From NCBI GenBank assembly GCA_002404055.1, contig DHIZ01000107.1, positions 7,020 to 71,019 of the forward strand: a DNA stretch of 64,000 nt, read 5' to 3'. Origin of the DNA: Chloroflexi bacterium UBA4733 (lineage in GTDB: Bacteria; Chloroflexota; UBA4733). The position numbers and the translations under genes were made by a program. The notes beneath the pieces are model-generated. The model saw nothing but the letters and a program-made list of their open reading frames with translations, did not search any database and was not told the DNA's origin. Positions 14,173-54,126 of this stretch are shown here, piece by piece (positions within the stretch are counted from its first letter, which is position 1; each line of letters begins with the position of its first letter).

Positions 14173-15351
14173 ATGGTGCAGTCCGCTGGGATGCGCGTCC
14201 GGCTTGAGCGCTGGGTTCGCGAGCGGGGGCCGCGGCTGCTGACGGCGGCGGCGCTGACATGGGCGGTGGGCTGGATCGCCGGCTTGTTTCTGGCGCCGGA
14301 CACGCTGTTTGGTGGCCGCTTCATTGATGCGGGTACGTACTACGGCGCCGGTCTGGCCTACCGCCAAGGCGCGGATCTGTTTTCCGGCGTCGCCTTTCGA
14401 CAGTGGCCCCTGGTGGCCGCCCTGTGGTCGCCTCTGACGCTGCTGGCACGTCCCATCGCCTTCCGCCTCTGGCTCCTCCTTTTACTGGTCGGCGTTGCTG
14501 TGGGGTTTGTCTCCCTCCTGTCTCGGCAAGAACGAGAGCCAGGCGGGGCGCCGTTTGGTCGGCTAGTCGTACTCTTCCTAGGACCGCCGACTCTGATTAT
14601 GCTCTATCTTGGTCAGATGAGCGGACTCTGCTTCGCCGCCTACGCCGTTGGGCTACGCCTCCTCCCCCGCCATCCGCGCCTGGCCGGCTGCTGCTTTGCG
14701 GTGATAGCGGCGAAGCCGAACCTGGCCCTGATCGCCCTACCCGCCCTCATCGCGGCGCCCCCCTCGGCCACGCTGGCCTTTGTCCTGGCTGCGCTGATCT
14801 GGCCGGTGGGGTCGGTGCTCGTGTCCGGGCCGGCGACGCTACTGGACTTCCTGGGGCGTGTCTACGCAGTGAGGGACTCGACTCTTGACCTGGTTTCCAG
14901 TTCGCTTGGCTCCCTCCTCCCGCTGCAGGGTACGCCGCATGCGCTGGTGCAGTTCGCTTTGCTCGGCGGCCTGGCGTGCCTGCTCGCCTGGCTTTGTTGG
15001 CGCCGCTGGCGGCGGGGGACGCTGCTCACTCCTGCTGGTGTGGATCTGGCGGCCGTCGTGACCCTGCTGGCGTTGCCCTATGCGCTGGTGTCGGATCTGC
15101 TCTTCGTGGCGCCGCTGCTGTTGCGGCTTTTCACATTGCCGGGACGGTCGACGCCGGCCCTGTTTACCGCCTGGTGGCTGGGTCCCTGGCTCGCTGCCCT
15201 TTTTGCCCATTCCGGTGGTGGTGGTCTGGCCGCCCTGTTGCCGCCGTTGGCGGCACTGGTTGGCTGGCGACTGCTCGGCGAACGCTGGCAGATGAGACCG
15301 CCTACAGCGCTGGTGGCAACGCCTCCAGATAGCGGATCACCGCCCGCGTGA
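14173..15351 (+). CDS. Multi-pass membrane protein, GT87/DUF2029-like
   Basis: This protein of about 392 residues has roughly nine hydrophobic helices. An acidic/tyrosine segment after the first helix (FIDAGTYYGAGLAYRQGADLF) resembles the polyprenol-phosphate-mannose-dependent GT87 mannosyltransferases. GT87 enzymes transfer mannose from a lipid donor at the outer membrane face. The frame is open from 14038, but the first ~45 residues are Pro/Arg-rich with no membrane character, so ATG 14173 (or 14191) is preferred. The 3' end overlaps ispH tail-to-tail by 50 bp. Confidence 0.65.
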   Translation: MVQSAGMRVRLERWVRERGPRLLTAAALTWAVGWIAGLFLAPDTLFGGRFIDAGTYYGAGLAYRQGADLFSGVAFRQWPLVAALWSPLTLLARPIAFRLWLLLLLVGVAVGFVSLLSRQEREPGGAPFGRLVVLFLGPPTLIMLYLGQMSGLCFAAYAVGLRLLPRHPRLAGCCFAVIAAKPNLALIALPALIAAPPSATLAFVLAALIWPVGSVLVSGPATLLDFLGRVYAVRDSTLDLVSSSLGSLLPLQGTPHALVQFALLGGLACLLAWLCWRRWRRGTLLTPAGVDLAAVVTLLALPYALVSDLLFVAPLLLRLFTLPGRSTPALFTAWWLGPWLAALFAHSGGGGLAALLPPLAALVGWRLLGERWQMRPPTALVATPPDSGSPPA

Positions 15352-16180
15352 TCTGGGTCTTGGTGGACGCCCCGGCGGTGACCCCCACCTTCTTGACGCC
15401 GCGTAGCCAGGCGGGGTCGATGTCGTCGACGGTATCGACGCGGTAGGCCGGCTTGCCGGCGCGATCGCGCACTGCATCCACGAGGCGGTTGGTATTGGAA
15501 CTACGCTCATCGCCGACGACGATGACGACATCGCAGAGTGCCGCCTGCTCCACGGCTGCCGTCTGCCGATCCTGGGTGGCGCTGCAAATCTCGTTGTGGA
15601 CTTCAATCTCCGGGAAGCGCTCCTGCAGGCGGTTGACCATGTCCTGCGTATCCCACATGCTCATGGTGGTCTGGGTCGTCACGGCGAGCTTGCCGGGCGG
15701 CAGTTCGAGCGCCTCCACTTCCGCCATGGTCTCCACCAGGTGGACCTGTTCGGGCGCATTGCCGATGGCGCCTTCCGGCTCCGGGTGGCCGTGCTTGCCG
15801 ATGTAGACGATGTGGTAGCCCTCGCCGGCCAGGCGCTGCACCAGGTCGTGCGTGCGCGTGACATCTGGGCATGTGGCATCAACCGTGCGGAGACCCTTGC
15901 GTGCCGCCAGTTCCCGCACCTGGGGCGAGACACCGTGCGCCGTGAAGATCACCGTACCGCCGTCGATCTGCTCCAGGATGCGTGCGCGGTTGGGGCCATC
16001 CACGGTCACGACGTTGTGTTCGGCCAGTTCGTCAATCATATGGCGGTTGTGGACCATCTGACCCAGGCCGTAGACAGGCCCGTTGGTGGTGTCACCGATC
16101 TGCTTCGCCAGCTTCATCGCCCGGACGACGCCGTAGCAGTAGCCCTGTGGCTTGATCACGTGAACGTCCATCGCCGCCAT
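15302..16180 (-). CDS. ispH: 4-hydroxy-3-methylbut-2-enyl diphosphate reductase
   Basis: This 292-residue iron-sulfur enzyme catalyses the last step of the MEP isoprenoid pathway, giving IPP and DMAPP. The three cluster cysteines are present: C15 in GYCYGV, C104 in DATCPDV and C199 in NEICSATQDRQ. So are the substrate-site histidines in LGQMVHNRH and TAHGVSP and the HPEPEG loop. The start may be ATG 16180 or ATG 16171; AGAGGG is better spaced for the second. It indicates use of the MEP rather than the mevalonate route. Confidence 0.95.
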   Translation of the reverse strand: MAAMDVHVIKPQGYCYGVVRAMKLAKQIGDTTNGPVYGLGQMVHNRHMIDELAEHNVVTVDGPNRARILEQIDGGTVIFTAHGVSPQVRELAARKGLRTVDATCPDVTRTHDLVQRLAGEGYHIVYIGKHGHPEPEGAIGNAPEQVHLVETMAEVEALELPPGKLAVTTQTTMSMWDTQDMVNRLQERFPEIEVHNEICSATQDRQTAAVEQAALCDVVIVVGDERSSNTNRLVDAVRDRAGKPAYRVDTVDDIDPAWLRGVKKVGVTAGASTKTQITRAVIRYLEALPPAL

Positions 16181-16637: not shown

Positions 16638-17684
16638 ATGCTCCAACCGCCGCCGACCCCCAACGATCTCGACGCCCTCTTCGCGCCGCCTACGCCTGAG
16701 GAGATCGCCGAGGCCTGGGCGTCGCTGACGATGGACTTCGTCCCCGGCCCGCTCGAGCTCCTGGGCAAGCCGATTGAGGAGCACGGCGTGACGGCCCAGT
16801 TCTTCCACTACGCCAGTGCCGGGCTCAAAGTCTATGGGGCCCTCTACCGGCCAAGCGACACGTCCGCCGGCCCCTGTCCCTTGCTGCTGGCCAACCACGG
16901 TGGCGGCGGCGGCCTGGGACCGTTGCGAGCGGCCCCAGCACCGGCGCCTGGCGCTGCTGACGGGACACCGCCCGCCAGGCGGCGGCCCTTCCCGACGTGG
17001 TGCTGGGAGCTCGCCCAGGCCGGCTACGTCGTGCTGGCCTCCACTTACCGCGGCGAACCATCGCCCGTGGGCATGTCGGAAGGCACGCTCGAGTTGCGCA
17101 AAGGCGAGGTCGACGACGTGCTGCAACTGTTGGCCTGCGGCAAGGCGCTGCCCTATGTGGACGCCGGGCGCATCGGCATGTGGGGCAACTCCCACGGCGC
17201 CGTGATCACCGCCCTGGCCGTGCAGCGCTCGCCGGACCTGCGGGGTGGAATCTGCTTCTACCCGGCGATCGACGTCCTCTTTCGCGGACCCGCCCCCGAT
17301 CGCAGCACCCGGCAGTATCTGGCAGCGCTGCTCAGCGGCCAGACGCCGCAGCGGATGATCACGCACTTCATCTTCCAGCCCTGGCTGGAAGGACGCCAGA
17401 CGCTGCACCAGACTCGGCAGGAGATGATCGTCCGCACGGCGCATCTGTTCGCTGACCGCACGCAGTGCCCGGTCTTTGTCGTCTGTGGCGATGCCGACCC
17501 CCTCCTGGACCAGGCGATCACGCTCGACATCGCCCTGGCCCGTGCCGGCAAGGAGCACGAGTTCCGCATCTTCCCGAAGGAAGACCACGGCTTCAATCAC
17601 GGTGGCTCGCCTGAAGCAACGGCCGAATCCTGGCGGCTGACGCTGGACTTCTTTGCTCGCCGCCTAGACAGGGAGGTCTCGTAG
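16638..17684 (+). CDS. Alpha/beta hydrolase, dienelactone hydrolase/acetyl-esterase type
   Basis: This 348-residue cytoplasmic alpha/beta hydrolase has an oxyanion-type strand LLLANHGGGGG and the nucleophile elbow G-N-S185-H-G in GRIGMWGNSHG. Its acid residue is in VVCGDADPLLD and its histidine in KEDHGFNHGG. An Ala/Pro-rich insert (about residues 95-117) precedes the core. The fold resembles prolyl-oligopeptidase-like or DLH-type esterases. ATG 16638 follows GGGAGGG. The tandem operator upstream ties it to the candidate regulon. The substrate is unknown. Confidence 0.85.
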   Translation: MLQPPPTPNDLDALFAPPTPEEIAEAWASLTMDFVPGPLELLGKPIEEHGVTAQFFHYASAGLKVYGALYRPSDTSAGPCPLLLANHGGGGGLGPLRAAPAPAPGAADGTPPARRRPFPTWCWELAQAGYVVLASTYRGEPSPVGMSEGTLELRKGEVDDVLQLLACGKALPYVDAGRIGMWGNSHGAVITALAVQRSPDLRGGICFYPAIDVLFRGPAPDRSTRQYLAALLSGQTPQRMITHFIFQPWLEGRQTLHQTRQEMIVRTAHLFADRTQCPVFVVCGDADPLLDQAITLDIALARAGKEHEFRIFPKEDHGFNHGGSPEATAESWRLTLDFFARRLDREVS

Positions 17685-17710
17685 CAAACCAGCCTTCCAG
17701 GTATCGGCGC

Positions 17711-17819
17711 GCCTGGCGACTAAAGTCGCGGCTACAAGAAGCGAAGTCCGCCTTCGCGGACTCGTTCCCAGCCCGCGCAGGCGGGCTTCGCCGGCATTAG
17801 GCGCGACTTCAGTCGCCAG
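17711..17819. repeat. Dispersed palindromic repeat, GACTGAAGTC family (copy 3)
   Basis: Left arm 17711-17735 (GCCTGGCGACTAAAGTCGCG) carries one substitution in the core. The right arm is at about 17798-17819. The inner segments GTCCGCCTTCGCGGAC and GCCCGCGCAGGCGGGC form nested hairpins. It lies between two convergent alpha/beta hydrolase genes. Confidence 0.8.
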
Positions 17820-17857
17820 CCATCGACACACCGGGCCAGACTTGCCGGCTGCACCAC

Positions 17858-18562
17858 TCAGGCCGACCCCAGAGTCGCCTCGCGCCCGTCCTCCTGCAGC
17901 GTCTCCAGGAGCAGTGCGGTCAGCTCGCGTGGCGCTTGCAGGACGGCCCCGTGCCCGCTGGCCAGCTCCCGATAGCGCCAGCCAGGCTCACCTTGCAGCC
18001 GCTCAACGACGTGGTCAAGGATGGTCGATCGAGGGTTGGTGCAGCGAATGAAGGTGCGCGGCACTTTGGACGCGGCGGCGTTGGTGAGCCGGATCGGCTG
18101 CAAGTAGGTCTGCAGCGGCTGGGCAGCCGCCCGTGGTCCGGCGTTCTTGCCGGGGGGAATGCGCCAGCCATCGCCCTGGGCGCGCGCGGTCGCCAGCCAG
18201 CCCTCGCGCGCCTGGGGAAACAGGTCGGCCACGGCCTCGCCATCCCTGGGAACCATGGCGTCGACATAGACGACATGGGCCAGCCGCTCGGGCACACGAT
18301 CGGCGACGCCGGTGATGACCATGCCGCCGTAGCTGCCCCCTACCAGCACGGCCTGCTGGAGATCCTCGTAGACCAGGACGTTGACGACATCCTGGATGTG
18401 CGTGTCCAGGTTGGTATCCGGGCGGGCAAGGTGTACCCGCTCGCCAAGTCCGGTCAGTGTAGTGGCAACAAGCTCGTGGCCGGCTGCACGCAGCCTCGCT
18501 CGCATCTGGGCCCAGACCCACGCCCCGCCGTGACTGCCGGAAACCGTGACGAACACTGCCAT
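17858..18562 (-). CDS. Alpha/beta hydrolase, esterase of the MES/pyrethroid-hydrolase type
   Basis: This 234-residue protein starts with TVSGSHGGAWVW (oxyanion region) and has the nucleophile elbow G-G-S77-Y-G-G, the acid region HVVYVDAMVP and the late catalytic histidine in ELASGHGAVL. This compact form matches salicylate-esterase/hydroxynitrile-lyase-like bacterial hydrolases acting on small esters. ATG 18562 follows GGAGGGG. It is the last gene of a long minus-strand cluster running from 25.8 kb, about 100 bp after an SBP stop. Confidence 0.85.
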   Translation of the reverse strand: MAVFVTVSGSHGGAWVWAQMRARLRAAGHELVATTLTGLGERVHLARPDTNLDTHIQDVVNVLVYEDLQQAVLVGGSYGGMVITGVADRVPERLAHVVYVDAMVPRDGEAVADLFPQAREGWLATARAQGDGWRIPPGKNAGPRAAAQPLQTYLQPIRLTNAAASKVPRTFIRCTNPRSTILDHVVERLQGEPGWRYRELASGHGAVLQAPRELTALLLETLQEDGREATLGSA

Positions 18563-43240: not shown

Positions 43241-44839
43241 ATGCAATCTAACATCCCGCGACGGCGGCTTCTCGTCTCGGCGGCGCTGGCGGCAGGCGGT
43301 GTGTTCGGGCTGGCTGCCTGCGGCGCCACCTCGACGGTGACGACTGCTACCTCCAGCCATGCCGCGACGGTTGAGGCCACGTCGGCGACAGCGCGTAGCG
43401 CGGGGCCTCTAACTTCTGCTCAAACGTCAGTGGTGAGCACGGCCGCTCCGACCAAGGAGCCGGCGCCCACGTCGACATCCAGTCAAGCCAGCCAGACCCC
43501 CGCGAGGGGATCGCAAGGCAGTGCCAGCGTGTCCCCAACCGGCGTGACTGCGGCAGCGCCCGCGAAAGCGACCGGGGCGGTGCAGTTTTGGCAGTACGCC
43601 CCACCGTTCGTTTCGGCATTTGCTACCCTCACTAAGGCATTCAATCAGACGCACCAGATGCCAGTTGCCGCGTCGATGCCCTCTGGCTATTGGGAGAAGG
43701 TGGTCGTCTCCGAGGCTTCGGGCACGGGACCTGATGTCTTCTACGGCGATACTGCCTACTTTAAGGTCTTGGCCCATAATGGGAATATCGCAGATGTCTC
43801 CGCGTACGCGCAGACGGACAAGGGCGCGTCAGCGAATCTTGCCGCGATGTACCCAGCGCTGGTAGAGTTTCACACGTATAATGGCAAGCTGATGGCGGCA
43901 CCCTTCAACTTGACGGCTGGCGTCGTTACCTTCCACACGGACGAGTTGCAGGCAGCCGGACTGCCGTCTCCCAATACGCTGGGCAAGCAGTGGGACTGGA
44001 ATGCGCTGCGGAAATATGCCACCCAACTGGTCCAGATGCAGGGCAACACGGTCAAGCGGGCCGGTCTGTTCATCAGGACGACGCTTGAGGAGGGCTACTA
44101 CGGCTTCTGTGTCGCGAATGGCGGTAGCTTCTTCAATGCCACCCTGGACCAGTGCATCATTGCTTCGCCGGAGGCCATCGCCGGATTAGAGTTTGCCGTC
44201 AATCTGGTGCGGGACGGCGTCGCCGTGGCCAGCTCCGGCTCTTTCTGGACAGCGGAGGCGAGCAAGTATCAACAAACCGCGGAAGGGGCGATCCCATCGG
44301 CATTCCTCTACAGCGAGCTGGCCATGTCTTATGCCGGTGACTGGTTCAACGCCTGGTACATAAAGGATCACCTCCAGCAGTGGGACGAGACCATCTTCCC
44401 ATACAGCCCAACCACTGGCAAGACGGTCAACACCTCCAACCTCGTCGGGGTATACCTGAACCCGGCGTCTCGGGTGAAGGATGACGCGTGGGCCTGGATG
44501 GCTTACCTCATGACCCCAGCGGTACAGGACCAGATCCCCACCCTCTTCCAGCAGACGCCGGGCAATAGCGCGGCCGCCGCTGCGTTTGCGCTCGACCCAG
44601 CCAAAGCGGGGCCACCTGATGGTCGCCGCTTCCTGCAGCCGGAGCTCGATGCCACGGTTTCCCTACCGGCAAGTGACTGGATCGCCTGGAGCGACATCAG
44701 CAAGGCAGCCCAGGGTCAGGCACTCACCGACGCCTTCACCGGCAAGCTGAGCTCGACTGATGCCTTGAAACAGGTGCAGGACATCGTCAACGGGATCATC
44801 GCCGCCAACAAGCGGAAGGGCGGCGTTAGCGTCACGTAG
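43241..44839 (+). CDS. Extracellular solute-binding lipoprotein (near-duplicate of 49085-50683)
   Basis: This 532-residue SBP has NIPRRRLLVSAAL, lipobox LAAC and a linker of about 75 residues rich in Ser/Thr/Ala. Mature-part landmarks are WQYAPPFVSAFATL, SEASGTGPDVFYGDT and VTFHTDELQAAGLPSPNT. It has exactly the same length as 49085-50683 and is almost identical over long stretches. ATG 43241 follows CAGGAGGGAG. It is followed by another SBP, so two different binding proteins are encoded in tandem without a transporter. Confidence 0.88.
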   Translation: MQSNIPRRRLLVSAALAAGGVFGLAACGATSTVTTATSSHAATVEATSATARSAGPLTSAQTSVVSTAAPTKEPAPTSTSSQASQTPARGSQGSASVSPTGVTAAAPAKATGAVQFWQYAPPFVSAFATLTKAFNQTHQMPVAASMPSGYWEKVVVSEASGTGPDVFYGDTAYFKVLAHNGNIADVSAYAQTDKGASANLAAMYPALVEFHTYNGKLMAAPFNLTAGVVTFHTDELQAAGLPSPNTLGKQWDWNALRKYATQLVQMQGNTVKRAGLFIRTTLEEGYYGFCVANGGSFFNATLDQCIIASPEAIAGLEFAVNLVRDGVAVASSGSFWTAEASKYQQTAEGAIPSAFLYSELAMSYAGDWFNAWYIKDHLQQWDETIFPYSPTTGKTVNTSNLVGVYLNPASRVKDDAWAWMAYLMTPAVQDQIPTLFQQTPGNSAAAAAFALDPAKAGPPDGRRFLQPELDATVSLPASDWIAWSDISKAAQGQALTDAFTGKLSSTDALKQVQDIVNGIIAANKRKGGVSVT

Positions 44840-49042: not shown

Positions 49043-49084
49043 GGCGTGATTTTCCGAAGGATTGGCGCAGGAGGGAGCGATTCC

Positions 49085-50683
49085 ATGCAGTCTAGCATCC
49101 CACGACGGCGGCTGCTCGTTTCGGCAGCGCTCGCGGCAGGCGGTGTGTTCGGGCTGGCTGCCTGCGGCGCCACCTCTCCGGTGACGACTGCTACCGGCAG
49201 CCATGCCGCGACGACCACGGCCACGTCGGCGACAGCGCGTAGCGCGGGGCCTCCAACTTCTGCTCAAACGTCGGTGGTGAGCACGGCCGCTCCGACCAAG
49301 GAGCCGGCACCCACGTCGACATCCAGTCAAGCCAGCCAGACCCCCGCGAGGGGATCGCAAGGCAGTGCCAGCGTGTCCCCAACCGGCGTGACTGCGGCAG
49401 CGCCCGCGAGAGCGACCGGGGCGGTGCAGTTTTGGCAGTACGCCCCGTCGTTCGTTTCGGCATTTGCCACCTTGACCAATGGGTTCAATCAGACGCACCA
49501 GATACCCGTCGCCGCGTCGGTGCCTTCTGACTATTGGACGAAGGTGGTCGTCTCCGAGGCTTCCGGTACTGGCCCTGATGTCTTCTATGGAGACACTGTC
49601 TACTTTAAGGCCCTCGCTCATAACGGGAATGTCGCGGATATCTCTGGATACGTGCATGCGGACAAGAACGCCTCAGCAAATCTTGCCGCGATGTACCCAG
49701 CACTGGTCGAGTTCCACACGTATCACGGTAAGCTGATGGCGGCACCGTTCAACTTGACGGTTGGCGTCATTACCTTCCACACGGACGAGTTGCAGGCAGC
49801 CGGACTGCCTTCCCCCAACACGCTGGGCAAGCAGTGGGACTGGAATGCCCTGCGGAAATATGCCACCCAACTGGTCCAGATACAGGGCAACACGGTCAAG
49901 CGCGCCGGTCTGTTCATCAACACGGCGGTCTCAATAGGCTACTACGGCTTTTGTGTCGCGAATGGTGGTAGCTTCTTCAATACCACCTCGGATCAGTGCG
50001 TTATCGCTTCGCCGGAGGCCATCGCCGGATTAGAGTTTGCAGTCAGTCTGGTGCGGGACGGCGTCGCCGTGACCAACTCCAGCTCCTTCTGGATGGCGGA
50101 GACCAGCAAGTACCAGCATACCGCGGAAGGGGCGATCCCATCGGCATTCCTCAACAGCGAGCTCGCCATGTCTTATATCGGCGACTGGGCCAACACTTGG
50201 TACATCAAGGATCACCTTCAGCAATGGGACGAGACCATCTTCCCCTATAGCCCGACCACCGGCAAGACGGTCAACACCTCCAACCTCGTCGGGGTATACC
50301 TGAACCCGGCGTCGAAGGTGAAGGACGACGCCTGGGCCTGGATGGCCTATCTAATGACCCCCAACGTGCAGGACCAGATCCCCACCCTCTTCCAGCAGAC
50401 GCCGGGCAATCGAGCGGCCGTTGCTACGTTTGCGCTCGACCCGGCCAAAGCGGGGCCACCTGATGGTCGACGCTTCCTGCAGCCGGAGCTTGATGCTACA
50501 GTTCCCCAACCGGCAAGTGAGTGGGTCTCCATTAGCGACATCGCCAAGGTGGCCCAGGGGCAGTTACTCACCGACGCCTTCAGCAGTAAGCTGAGCCCAG
50601 CCGACGCTTTAAAGCAGGTGCAGGACATTGTCAACGGGATCATCGCCACGAATAAGGGGAAGGGAGGCATCAGCGTCACGTAG
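49085..50683 (+). CDS. Extracellular solute-binding lipoprotein (near-duplicate of 43241-44839)
   Basis: This 532-residue SBP has the same length as 43241-44839 and the same signal and linker (SIPRRRLLVSAAL, LAAC). Substitutions are scattered through the mature part, for instance in the loops near residues 140-200 and 285-300. The ribosome-binding region is also duplicated. It follows the CehA-type gene and precedes a broken sulfatase copy. The conserved linker and diverged mature part suggest duplication followed by change of binding specificity. Confidence 0.88.
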   Translation: MQSSIPRRRLLVSAALAAGGVFGLAACGATSPVTTATGSHAATTTATSATARSAGPPTSAQTSVVSTAAPTKEPAPTSTSSQASQTPARGSQGSASVSPTGVTAAAPARATGAVQFWQYAPSFVSAFATLTNGFNQTHQIPVAASVPSDYWTKVVVSEASGTGPDVFYGDTVYFKALAHNGNVADISGYVHADKNASANLAAMYPALVEFHTYHGKLMAAPFNLTVGVITFHTDELQAAGLPSPNTLGKQWDWNALRKYATQLVQIQGNTVKRAGLFINTAVSIGYYGFCVANGGSFFNTTSDQCVIASPEAIAGLEFAVSLVRDGVAVTNSSSFWMAETSKYQHTAEGAIPSAFLNSELAMSYIGDWANTWYIKDHLQQWDETIFPYSPTTGKTVNTSNLVGVYLNPASKVKDDAWAWMAYLMTPNVQDQIPTLFQQTPGNRAAVATFALDPAKAGPPDGRRFLQPELDATVPQPASEWVSISDIAKVAQGQLLTDAFSSKLSPADALKQVQDIVNGIIATNKGKGGISVT

Positions 50684-51261: not shown

Positions 51262-52296
51262 ATGACGGTTAAGGTGGGTTTTGTCGGCTGCGGCGCCCGC
51301 GCGCAGCGGGAGTGGCTGGACCTCGTGCGCATGCCGAACGTGCAGTTTGCCGGGCTGTGCGATGTGTCTGAGGAGGCCGTGCGGGGCAGTCTGGACCGCT
51401 TCAATCGCGAGCGTCCGCCGGCGGAGCAGCTCGCCGCACCCCTGTTCACGGACGTCCGCCGGATGCTCGACGCCGTAGATCTTGACGCGGTCTACGTGGC
51501 GCTGCCGCCCTTTGCCCATGGCGAGATCGAGCATGCGGTGATCGACGCCGGCAAGGCGATCCTGGTAGAGAAGCCCCTGGCGATTGACATGGGCGTGGCG
51601 CGGGCGATTGACGCCCATATCCGGGAAGCCGGCGTCATCAACTCGGTCGGCTATCAAGGACGCTACGGCGCGCTGGTCGACCGGGCGCGGGAGGTGCTGG
51701 CCGGCGTGCCGATCGGCCTGGTGCTGGCCATTCGCCTGGGCGGTCTGCCGCCCAAGCTGTGGTGGCGCATTCAGGAGCAGTCGGGCGGCATGCTCATCGA
51801 GCAGCACACCCACGCGGTCGACCTCATGCGCTACCTGGCCGGCGAGGTCGACAGCGTGTACGCCGCGGCCGGCACGCTGTTGCTGCAGGAGGTGCCCCAG
51901 CTCAGCATCGACGACGTGAACGCGGCGACCGTCCAGTTCAGCAGCGGCGCCGTCGGGACGATCGTCAATACTTGCGCGGTGGCCGGCCGGCAACTGCCCA
52001 ACGTCAGCGGCTACATCCACATCGTCGCCCGCAACCTCGTCCTGGCCATCTCCCCAGCGGCACTGCATATCATGCGCGGCAGGGAGGAGCCGGAAGTGCT
52101 GCGTGGCGAGCTCGAGGATGGCAACTACAAGATGAACGAGACGTTCATTCGCGCTGTCGAGACAGGGGACAGCTCCGCCATCCGCTCCTCCTACAGCGAC
52201 AGTCTGCGCACCCACGCCGTCACCGTCGGAGCGGTGCAGTCGGCCCGCACGGGCCGACCGCTGCGCATTGCCGACCTGCTGGAGGGGCGCTCCTGA
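51262..52296 (+). CDS. Gfo/Idh/MocA-family oxidoreductase
   Basis: This 344-residue NAD(P)-dependent oxidoreductase has a Rossmann start VKVGFVGCGARAQ, the substrate-domain motif VEKPLAIDMG with the conserved lysine, and EQHTHAVDLMRYLAG supplying the late histidine. Relatives oxidise or epimerise inositols, sugars or sugar acids in the cytoplasm. ATG 51262 follows GGAGA. It heads a plus-strand run with the flavin reductase at 52382 and the deiodinase-like selenoprotein, suggesting a joint redox pathway. Confidence 0.9.
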   Translation: MTVKVGFVGCGARAQREWLDLVRMPNVQFAGLCDVSEEAVRGSLDRFNRERPPAEQLAAPLFTDVRRMLDAVDLDAVYVALPPFAHGEIEHAVIDAGKAILVEKPLAIDMGVARAIDAHIREAGVINSVGYQGRYGALVDRAREVLAGVPIGLVLAIRLGGLPPKLWWRIQEQSGGMLIEQHTHAVDLMRYLAGEVDSVYAAAGTLLLQEVPQLSIDDVNAATVQFSSGAVGTIVNTCAVAGRQLPNVSGYIHIVARNLVLAISPAALHIMRGREEPEVLRGELEDGNYKMNETFIRAVETGDSSAIRSSYSDSLRTHAVTVGAVQSARTGRPLRIADLLEGRS

Positions 52297-52381
52297 ACTG
52301 TGGCCATCGTGAGAGCCGCGCGCGTTTCCGACTGCTGGAACACAAGATCAACGGCAAAATCGTGCTGGAGATGAGTTGACC

Positions 52382-53464
52382 ATGGAATCGTCCCCCCGGC
52401 TATTTCAGCCGTACCCGATCCGAGGCGTCACCCTGCGCAACCGCCTGGTGGTGTCGCCGATGTACCAGTACTCCTGTGAGGCTCGCGACGGCCTGGCGAC
52501 CGACTGGCACCTGGTCCATCTGGGCAGCCGCGCGGCTGGCGGCGCCGCCCTGGTCTTTACCGAGGGCGCCGCCGTCAGCCCGGAAGGGCGCGTCTCCCCC
52601 GAAGGTCTGGGCTTCTGGTCGGAGGCGCACGGCCAGGCGCTGGCGCCGGTCATCAACTTCGTCCGTGGCCAGGGGGCTGCCATGGGTCTCCAACTCTTCC
52701 ACGCCGGCCGCAAATCGAGCATCACTCGTCCCTGGGAGGGCCATCGCCGGGTGGCCGAAACGGAAGGCGGTTGGACCCCCATCGGGCCGAGCGCCTTTGC
52801 CTTCGACGCCTCCAACAGCGAACCGCGCGCCATGACCGACGACGATATCCAGCGCGTGATTGCTGCCTATGGTGCGGCAGCGGCGCGGGCCGATCGGTAC
52901 CAGGTCGATGTGATTGAGATCCACGCCGCCCACGGCTACCTGCTGCACCAGTTTCTGTCGCCGTTGAGCAACCGGCGCACCGACCGCTACGGCGGCAGCT
53001 TCGAGCACCGCATCCGTTTTGCCCTGGAGGTGGCGGAGGCCGTGCGCGCAAACTGGCCGGCCGCCAAGCCACTGTTCTTCCGGCTTTCGGTCACCGACTG
53101 GGTAGCCGGCGGCTGGGACGTGGCCGACAGCGTCCGCCTGGCCCGCGCCCTGGCCGAGCGCGGCGTCGACCTCATCGACTGCTCCGGCGGTGGTCTGGCT
53201 CCGCAGCAGCAGATCACCATCGGTCCGGGCTACCAGGTGCCGTTTGCCGAGCAAATCCGCCGGGAGGCCGGCATCGCGACGGCTGCCGTCGGGCTGATCA
53301 CGACCGCCGAACAGGCGGAACAGATTCTGCAGGCGGAGCAAGCCGACTTGATCGTGATGGCCCGCGAGTTCTTGCGTGATCCCTACTTCCCGCTGCACGC
53401 AGCGAAAGCGCTCGGTGCGCCGGACGCCGTGCGCTGGCCGATCCAGTACGCGCGAGCGAAGTAA
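52382..53464 (+). CDS. NADH:flavin oxidoreductase, Old Yellow Enzyme family (YqjM-like)
   Basis: This 360-residue TIM-barrel flavoenzyme has NRLVVSPMYQYSCE, typical of the YqjM/thermophilic-like group, and LQLFHAGRKSS. The substrate-binding pair is in IEIHAAHGYLLHQFLSP, followed by NRRTDRYGGSFEHR, and the late FMN-phosphate region is VIVMAREFLRDPYFPL. It reduces activated C=C bonds with NAD(P)H. ATG 52382 follows GGAG. It ends 35 bases before the selenoprotein gene, so co-transcription is likely. Confidence 0.92.
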   Translation: MESSPRLFQPYPIRGVTLRNRLVVSPMYQYSCEARDGLATDWHLVHLGSRAAGGAALVFTEGAAVSPEGRVSPEGLGFWSEAHGQALAPVINFVRGQGAAMGLQLFHAGRKSSITRPWEGHRRVAETEGGWTPIGPSAFAFDASNSEPRAMTDDDIQRVIAAYGAAAARADRYQVDVIEIHAAHGYLLHQFLSPLSNRRTDRYGGSFEHRIRFALEVAEAVRANWPAAKPLFFRLSVTDWVAGGWDVADSVRLARALAERGVDLIDCSGGGLAPQQQITIGPGYQVPFAEQIRREAGIATAAVGLITTAEQAEQILQAEQADLIVMAREFLRDPYFPLHAAKALGAPDAVRWPIQYARAK

Positions 53465-53499
53465 ACGTGGCTCGGCGGCGTTGGCGCCGGGAGGGAGAC

Positions 53500-54126
53500 A
53501 TGAGGAAGGTGGAAACGATGAGCACCAGCACACAGGGTAGTCCGGCTCCAGCCGATGTAGCATGGCAGGAGGCGCGGGCATGCGCCCTCAGTCGCTACCG
53601 GCGGCCGGACCAGCTGCAGGCCGGTGACCCAGCGCCCGATCTGGAGTTGGCGCGGCTGGACGGCAGTGGCCAGCAGCGGCTGGACGGCTTCGTGGGCGAC
53701 CGGCCACTGGTGCTGTTCTTTGGCAGCTATACCTGACCGCCGTTCCGTCGCCGGTCAGGCGACCTGGAGCGGATGTACCAGCAGCAACGTGAGCGAGCGG
53801 CGTTCTTCGTGGTGTATATCGCCGAGGCGCACAGCACCGACGGCTGGCAGGTGCAGGCGAACGAGCAGGAAGGGGTGCTGTTGCGCGAGCACACCAGTTT
53901 CGAGGAGCGGCGCGCGGCGGCGCACCTGTGCGCGGAGCAGCTCGGGCTGAGCATGCCGACGCTGGTGGACGGGATGGACGACGCGGCGTGCGAGCGCTTC
54001 TCGGCCTGGCCGGAGCGCATCTACATTGTCGGGGTGGACGGGCGCATCGCCTATAAAGGTGGGCCGGGGCCGCAGCAATTCAATCCGGCGGAGGCGCGGC
54101 AGGCGCTGGAGGGGCTGCTGGGGTAG
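53500..54126 (+). CDS. Iodothyronine deiodinase-family selenoprotein, UGA-encoded selenocysteine at residue 79
   Basis: The frame is open from ATG 53500 (GGGAGGGA before it) to the stop at 54124-54126 except for one TGA at 53734-53736. Read through, the protein has 208 residues. Around the TGA it reads LVLFFGSYT-U-PPF, matching the deiodinase active site FGSCT-U-PPF with Tyr for Cys. Downstream VVYIAEAHSTDGW matches the conserved deiodinase stretch around the active-site histidine. The fold is thioredoxin-like. An SECIS-like hairpin starts 3 bases after the TGA. Deiodinases carry out reductive dehalogenation; bacterial members have unknown substrates. It lacks the animal N-terminal membrane anchor. 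Conventional annotation would split it into two ORFs (ending 53736; starting 53773). Confidence 0.85.
53740..53772 (+). promoter_or_regulatory. Bacterial SECIS-like hairpin
   Basis: Directly after the in-frame TGA (53734-53736), CCGTTCC (53740-53746) pairs with GGAGCGG (53766-53772) with one G-U pair. GTCGCC (53747-53752) pairs with GGCGAC (53758-53763). A CU bulge lies at 53764-53765 and the apical loop is GGUCA (53753-53757). The first loop G is 17 bases after the TGA, within the range known for bacterial SECIS elements, and the loop contains GGUC as in E. coli fdhF. Confidence 0.7.

Follow-up and report, generated by a model that had tools for sequence, protein, structure and literature searches.

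An interrupted reading frame of the deiodinase family

Does a bacterial gene that is apparently broken by a stop codon encode a working selenium enzyme? We address this question for a reading frame in a 64,000-nucleotide stretch of contig DHIZ01000107.1 (assembly GCA_002404055.1, positions 7,020 to 71,019 of the forward strand) from Chloroflexi bacterium UBA4733, referred to below as the window. The frame at 53500-54126 (plus strand) has a single internal stop, a TGA at 53734-53736 in codon 79, and the sequences flanking it read LVLFFGSYT-U-PPFRRR (U, selenocysteine) and VVYIAEAHSTDGW. The gene looks stop-broken, yet its product is very likely a selenium enzyme, akin to those with which animals activate thyroid hormone. 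We infer ATG 53500 as the start because of the Shine-Dalgarno-like GGAGG ahead of it (Table 1); ATG 53518 is an alternative candidate.

When read through the TGA, the 208-residue product matches the Pfam family T4_deiodinase (PF00837) at 132.1 bits against a gathering cut-off of 27, unbroken from residue 36 to residue 204 and across the TGA. Residues 38-204 match mouse Dio3 (4tr3) with an E-value of 6.9e-28, and the solved catalytic core of mouse Dio2 is matched as well. Both the frame and the family match are confirmed far beyond chance. A preliminary description of this DNA, made from its letters, had reported one in-frame TGA with such flanks, a natural stop and membership in the deiodinase family, all of which we find. 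The window protein also matches positions 178-340 of the 347 positions of the NCBIfam profile NF038285 (deiodinase_rel, hypoth_equivalog; E 2.4e-53), scoring 181.8 bits, below the curated cut-off of 250; 177 profile positions precede the matched stretch. Structure comparison assigns a thioredoxin fold and sequence alignment a deiodinase omega-loop, and in the predicted fold residue 79 immediately precedes a helix beginning at residue 80. A hydrophobic N-terminal segment, such as would form a membrane anchor of the animal deiodinase type, was not found in the window protein, in agreement with the soluble protein proposed previously; transmembrane-like segments are seen in 6 of 24 alignment rows.

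Conservation of the TGA codon

Pieces of about 115-145 amino acids form the majority among the best 120 of the 210 database proteins that passed as relatives, and the short ones whose letters were inspected start behind the TGA. Gene callers seem to cut such genes by stopping at the UGA, which accounts for these pieces, and the family is therefore probably undercounted. Two full-length relatives (P0004 and P0005) have Cys at the selenocysteine (Sec) site, and P0003 and P0008 have Trp, which we read as a TGA that the source had rendered as Trp.

A genome scan with the window protein alone yielded no relative, and neither did a scan of a viral collection. An alignment-based scan of contigs, using conserved peptides that excluded the Sec site, identified 24 loci. 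All 23 loci that cover the site have TGA there, within GS[YFC]T-U-[PA]PF, and never TAA or TAG; the remaining locus, L022, starts only downstream of the site and could be the remainder of the L017 gene, which comes from the same metagenome-assembled genome and is not joined to it. One locus (L023) reads U-APF and another (L024) has a run of N beside the site. Among 400 Chloroflexota genomes, 40 had some match at E <= 1e-8, many of them short or stop-free, and the seven best matches (E <= 1e-30; one is the gene of L003 itself) each contain one TGA, at the same place, with U-TVF in L035. Placement of Sec at residue 79, as first proposed, is thus supported by loci from other genomes.

It is very improbable that the TGA is a real stop, be it in a decaying pseudogene or between two halves made as separate proteins. 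The downstream piece does have its own ATG and is a 117-residue protein in the database, but only 6 of 22 genes keep the Met that starts it, and both halves can be aligned across the loci that keep the TGA, which upholds the earlier argument against decay. Codon-position counts, made without gaps over 42 codons on each side of the TGA in four groups, showed a third-position excess on both sides in two of them (L007-L009, and the window gene with five relatives). The excess is one-sided in the other two: it is absent downstream in L003/L004 (p 0.42) and upstream in L012/L015/L016 (p 0.8), where the stretch is divergent and was compared ungapped. The Cys-containing relatives might speak for a TGC or TGT misread in sequencing or assembly. 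Such an error has a negligible probability, as the same codon recurs across separate assemblies that span several phyla, in most cases followed by a hairpin.

The searches also turned up several variants. In-frame TGA codons occur in L035 (FGSFT-U-TVF) and in L042 and L043 (FGSVT-U-PIT), which have neither UPPF nor UxxC. Four deiodinase-like genes from Chloroflexota (L038, L040, L041 and L048) have Ser, Asp or Gly at the catalytic position and are probably not redox enzymes of the same kind. In four deiodinase-like selenoproteins from Planctomycetota, EF-hand sequences stand ahead of the catalytic domain, scoring over the Pfam cut-off in L018 and L020 and slightly under it in L014 and L019.

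Hairpin and machinery for selenocysteine insertion

A hairpin of the type of the bacterial selenocysteine insertion sequence (SECIS) lies just behind the TGA, inside the coding region. This differs from animal deiodinases, whose SECIS element is in the 3' untranslated region. The 51-nucleotide stretch from the UGA folds with -24.2 kcal/mol (z -2.48 against dinucleotide shuffles). Because the hairpin sits in coding sequence, we tested it against synonymous recodings that follow the codon use of the locus concerned; in 22 genes the mean z was -1.37 (range -3.2 to +0.7), and the profile of folding energy along the gene had its minimum of mean z at offset 0 (-1.31). When defined by at least 5 pairs, a loop with GGU, GU or GGC and a set distance from the UGA, the hairpin was found in 24 of 27 genes against 4.5 expected. 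Among control windows taken from these genes 196 of 3388 had one, and no other offset gave more than 4 of 27. Its stems vary between phyla, and a G-rich loop is retained. Under the unchanged definition, the distant U-PYC and U-PIT genes, L042 and L043 included, have it in 8 of 8 cases (1.2 expected).

Scores over curated cut-offs were obtained in the 23 genomes with loci for SelB (21), tRNA-Sec (19), SelA (20) and SelD (23). All four components are present in 16 of these genomes and at least three in 22, the exception being G022, the genome of L023, with SelD only. Among 14 well-known genomes that served as controls, SelA was over the cut-off in one, SelD in two, SelB in two and tRNA-Sec in five. 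The window was placed by the identity of its IspH (15302-16180, minus strand). Compared with 301 genomes of the phylum to which L003 (Ardenticatenales, Chloroflexota) belongs, this protein came closest to that of G048 with 91%, followed by G024 and G037 with 76% and 75%. These three genomes form one family and stand in here for the genome of the window; two of the assemblies are small (1.6 and 1.1 Mb). SelA is present in all three, and SelB over the cut-off and SelD in G048. The SelD of G048 (G048:C602:3700-4617) has one in-frame TGA and itself looks like a selenoprotein.

Several results weigh against recoding at this site. Folding energy taken by itself leaves most hairpins unremarkable, with just 6 of 22 beating 95% of their recodings; in seven genes (L002, L005, L006, L007, L009, L012 and L016) at least 20% of recodings fold equally well. 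A second dip of the mean z at codon offsets +72 to +78 (-0.92 to -1.12) means that energy alone would not single out the SECIS. The defined hairpin is missing in three of the 27 genes (L006, L032 and L034), its definition was written after inspection of 22 of the 27 (the other five gave 3 of 5), and the relatedness of the rows makes the significance of the 24 of 27 nominal. Of three genes added later and judged by the unchanged definition, L024 passes (0.3 expected), and L023 and L035 lack the hairpin. A tRNA-Sec was found in none of the three nearest genomes (scoring covered 150 of 453 candidates in the closest and every candidate in the remaining pair). Short loci surrounding their selA genes and the SelB of G048 yielded none either, and none of the three contains the selenoprotein gene itself. 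Finally, SelA occurs in 164 of 201 Chloroflexota genomes, and therefore the machinery alone says little there. Chloroflexota are thus largely Sec-using, which makes Sec decoding at the window gene plausible, though it is no specific proof. Taken from the sequence, a deiodinase-fold selenoprotein made by UGA recoding is what we consider highly probable.

Active site and possible reaction

Residues Ser76, Thr78, Tyr106, Glu109 and His111 of the window protein correspond to Ser127, Thr129, Tyr157, Glu160 and His162 of Dio2, which, together with His182, are named in a proton relay proposed in sections of two papers on these enzymes; for His162, substrate binding or stacking is discussed there too (PMC9141512, PMC11592359). 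The five residues are identical in the window protein and all 22 Sec rows. In DIO1, according to the relevant part of one of these papers, the Thr is essential and the T125S variant nearly normal (PMC9141512); P0004 and P0005, the bacterial relatives with Cys, have Ser at the position of Thr78. Pro171-Glu172-Arg173 corresponds to Pro213-Glu214-Arg215 of Dio1, where, in the same sections, Pro is said to open the cleft, and Glu and Arg are suggested as the residues that grip the hormone by its amino-acid end (PMC9141512, PMC11592359). At the position of this Pro, shared by Dio1 and the window protein, Dio2 and Dio3 have a gating Phe. As judged by alignment, the window protein keeps the residues of the chemistry and part of the substrate site.

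Other positions fit an animal-type enzyme less well. His131, which aligns with Dio2 His182, is present in the window protein and is His in only 5 of 22 rows. The animal deiodinases (Dio3, 4tr3; Dio2, 9h48) are membrane-anchored and have a proximal and a distal Cys; the window protein lacks all three, with Tyr77 in place of the proximal Cys. As both of these Cys are missing, the enzyme cannot simply be assumed to follow the re-reduction route of Dio1 and Dio3, and with the anchor also not kept, recycling must differ. A candidate for this role is Cys144, in helix 134-148, which is found in 14 of 15 FGSYT rows and in none of the four FGSCT or three FGSFT rows; the proximal Cys and Cys144 occur together in none of the 29 rows on the deiodinase side of the tree. 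This pattern may reflect a swap of resolving cysteines, but L034 combines FGSFT with Cys144 and the two or three independent pairs do not reach significance. Four genes (L012, L015, L016 and L021) read FGSCT-U-PPF, with the proximal Cys as in Dio1 and Dio3, and three of them have an N-terminal transmembrane-like segment resembling that of animal deiodinases.

In the mechanism that we propose, SelB on the GGU-loop hairpin just behind the UGA would deliver Sec-tRNA, and ribosomes would insert Sec at residue 79 rather than terminate. By analogy with the animal deiodinases, the selenolate of Sec79 would most likely attack the substrate, with a proton passed along by Thr78, Tyr106, Glu109 and His111, and the enzyme would then be reduced by an external thiol. 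Provided that it is a selenoenzyme, it may catalyze reductive dehalogenation of an aromatic compound, probably one with an amino or carboxyl group, an assignment by analogy that we hold tentatively; some other thiol or selenol exchange is unlikely.

It is also possible, with a somewhat lower probability than dehalogenation, that the protein is a one-Sec peroxidase, in which Sec79 reduces peroxides, an external thiol recycles it and the likeness to deiodinases reflects ancestry only. AhpC-TSA is just over its Pfam cut-off (28 vs 26 bits; Redoxin is below its own), and in the structure comparison the two deiodinases at the top by Z score are followed by thioredoxin-fold oxidoreductases that include the 1-Cys peroxiredoxin AhpE, at about 18. 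The Sargasso Sea study likewise suggests a redox function, thyroid hormone not being expected in bacteria (PMC1088965). However, the surroundings of Sec79 do not show the peroxiredoxin motif PxxxTxxC, as -3 is Ser76 and -7 is Leu72. Moreover, the omega-loop and, within the Glu/Arg pair, the Arg are features in common with the animal deiodinases that all 14 rows of the sister group lack.

Position in the family and published relatives

In a midpoint-rooted tree, the six relatives with UPYC form a separate clade (support 99/99). The animal enzymes are represented in the tree by only two segments, both long-branched (shared stem 1.18), and it shows the side on which they lie, not their nearest bacterial sister. 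L036 and L037, Chloroflexota genes with U-PPF, fall on the other side. The value of the window gene is that it marks a U-PPF clade lying with the animal enzymes. This clade, which keeps the omega-loop and the Arg absent from the examined UxxC relatives, is a sensible set in which to look for what deiodinases did before thyroid hormone existed. A further proposition, which we regard as rather doubtful, is that its members, widespread in bacteria, are selenium-dependent reductive dehalogenases acting on halogenated aromatic amino acids or similar acids, and that the animal deiodinases descend from this stock; if so, the omega-loop would be older than animals, as would the Glu/Arg pair suggested to grip the hormone by its amino-acid end.

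The window gene adds to bacterial deiodinase-like selenoproteins that are already published, a point absent from the preliminary description. Such proteins, with bacterial SECIS elements, were described from the Sargasso Sea in 2005, in a paper whose Table 1 gives four selenoprotein sequences and which has a further table row, 4, 6, 0, 0, the 6 being taken here for Cys forms (PMC1088965). Table 2 of the 2008 Global Ocean Sampling study has 22 selenoproteins in 12 samples, 21 Cys homologs and a "-" for the motif (PMC2398784). As far as these tables and the accompanying excerpts go, the proteins share with the window gene PF00837, a Sec or Cys active site and a bacterial SECIS behind the UGA; they were compared without alignment letters, so that the subgroup is not assignable. 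Extracts of reviews from 2022 and 2026 list UxxC as the motif of the family (PMC9312934, PMC13188914), whereas the window protein has U-P-P-F, with no Cys at +3. Among the papers that name searches for a bacterial deiodinase listed in the open-licence literature, none reports one with tested activity in its title or at the beginning of its abstract; absence there shows little.

Neighboring genes and other features of the window

The preliminary description had placed the gene in a likely operon with two upstream oxidoreductase genes (Table 1), a suggestion for which gene order and direction in the window are the sole evidence. Downstream lie a gene whose glycoside-hydrolase match is below threshold and one for a phosphodiesterase. 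In tblastn searches of 29 other loci, none of six window neighbors was found near the gene except for one weak Gfo match (28% identity, on the opposite strand of L001); the flanks searched were uneven, with about 1.5 kb per side for loci from the 400-genome scan and some others stopping at contig ends. The operon was accordingly rejected as a functional clue, and the neighbors do not inform function.

Table 1. Coordinates of the selenoprotein locus and its upstream genes
Feature	Position	Strand	Remarks
Gfo/Idh/MocA oxidoreductase (PF01408)	51262..52296	+	Upstream of the selenoprotein gene; association not conserved
Old Yellow Enzyme-type flavin oxidoreductase (PF00724)	52376..53464	+	Stops 35 nt short of ATG 53500; association not conserved
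Shine-Dalgarno-like GGAGG	53490..53494	+	5 nt ahead of ATG 53500; read from sequence
Deiodinase-like selenoprotein gene (very likely)	53500..54126	+	208 residues including Sec79; frame ends with TAG 54124-54126
TGA, putative Sec codon (residue 79)	53734..53736	+	Position conserved in other loci
Bacterial SECIS-type hairpin	53747..53763	+	Stem GUCGCC / GGCGAC, loop GGUCA; z -2.99 against synonymous recoding
Downstream piece, separate 117-residue protein in database	53773..54126	+	Own ATG at 53773

Elsewhere in the window, a match to the Rfam family CRISPR-DR28 at 17769-17792 (minus strand), just over the cut-off, was dismissed as chance, since it stands by itself and the interval 17500-18100 contains no direct repeats. 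Two genes, at 43241-44839 and 49046-50683, have lipoprotein-like signal starts and nearly identical N-termini, and the pair is likely a duplication.
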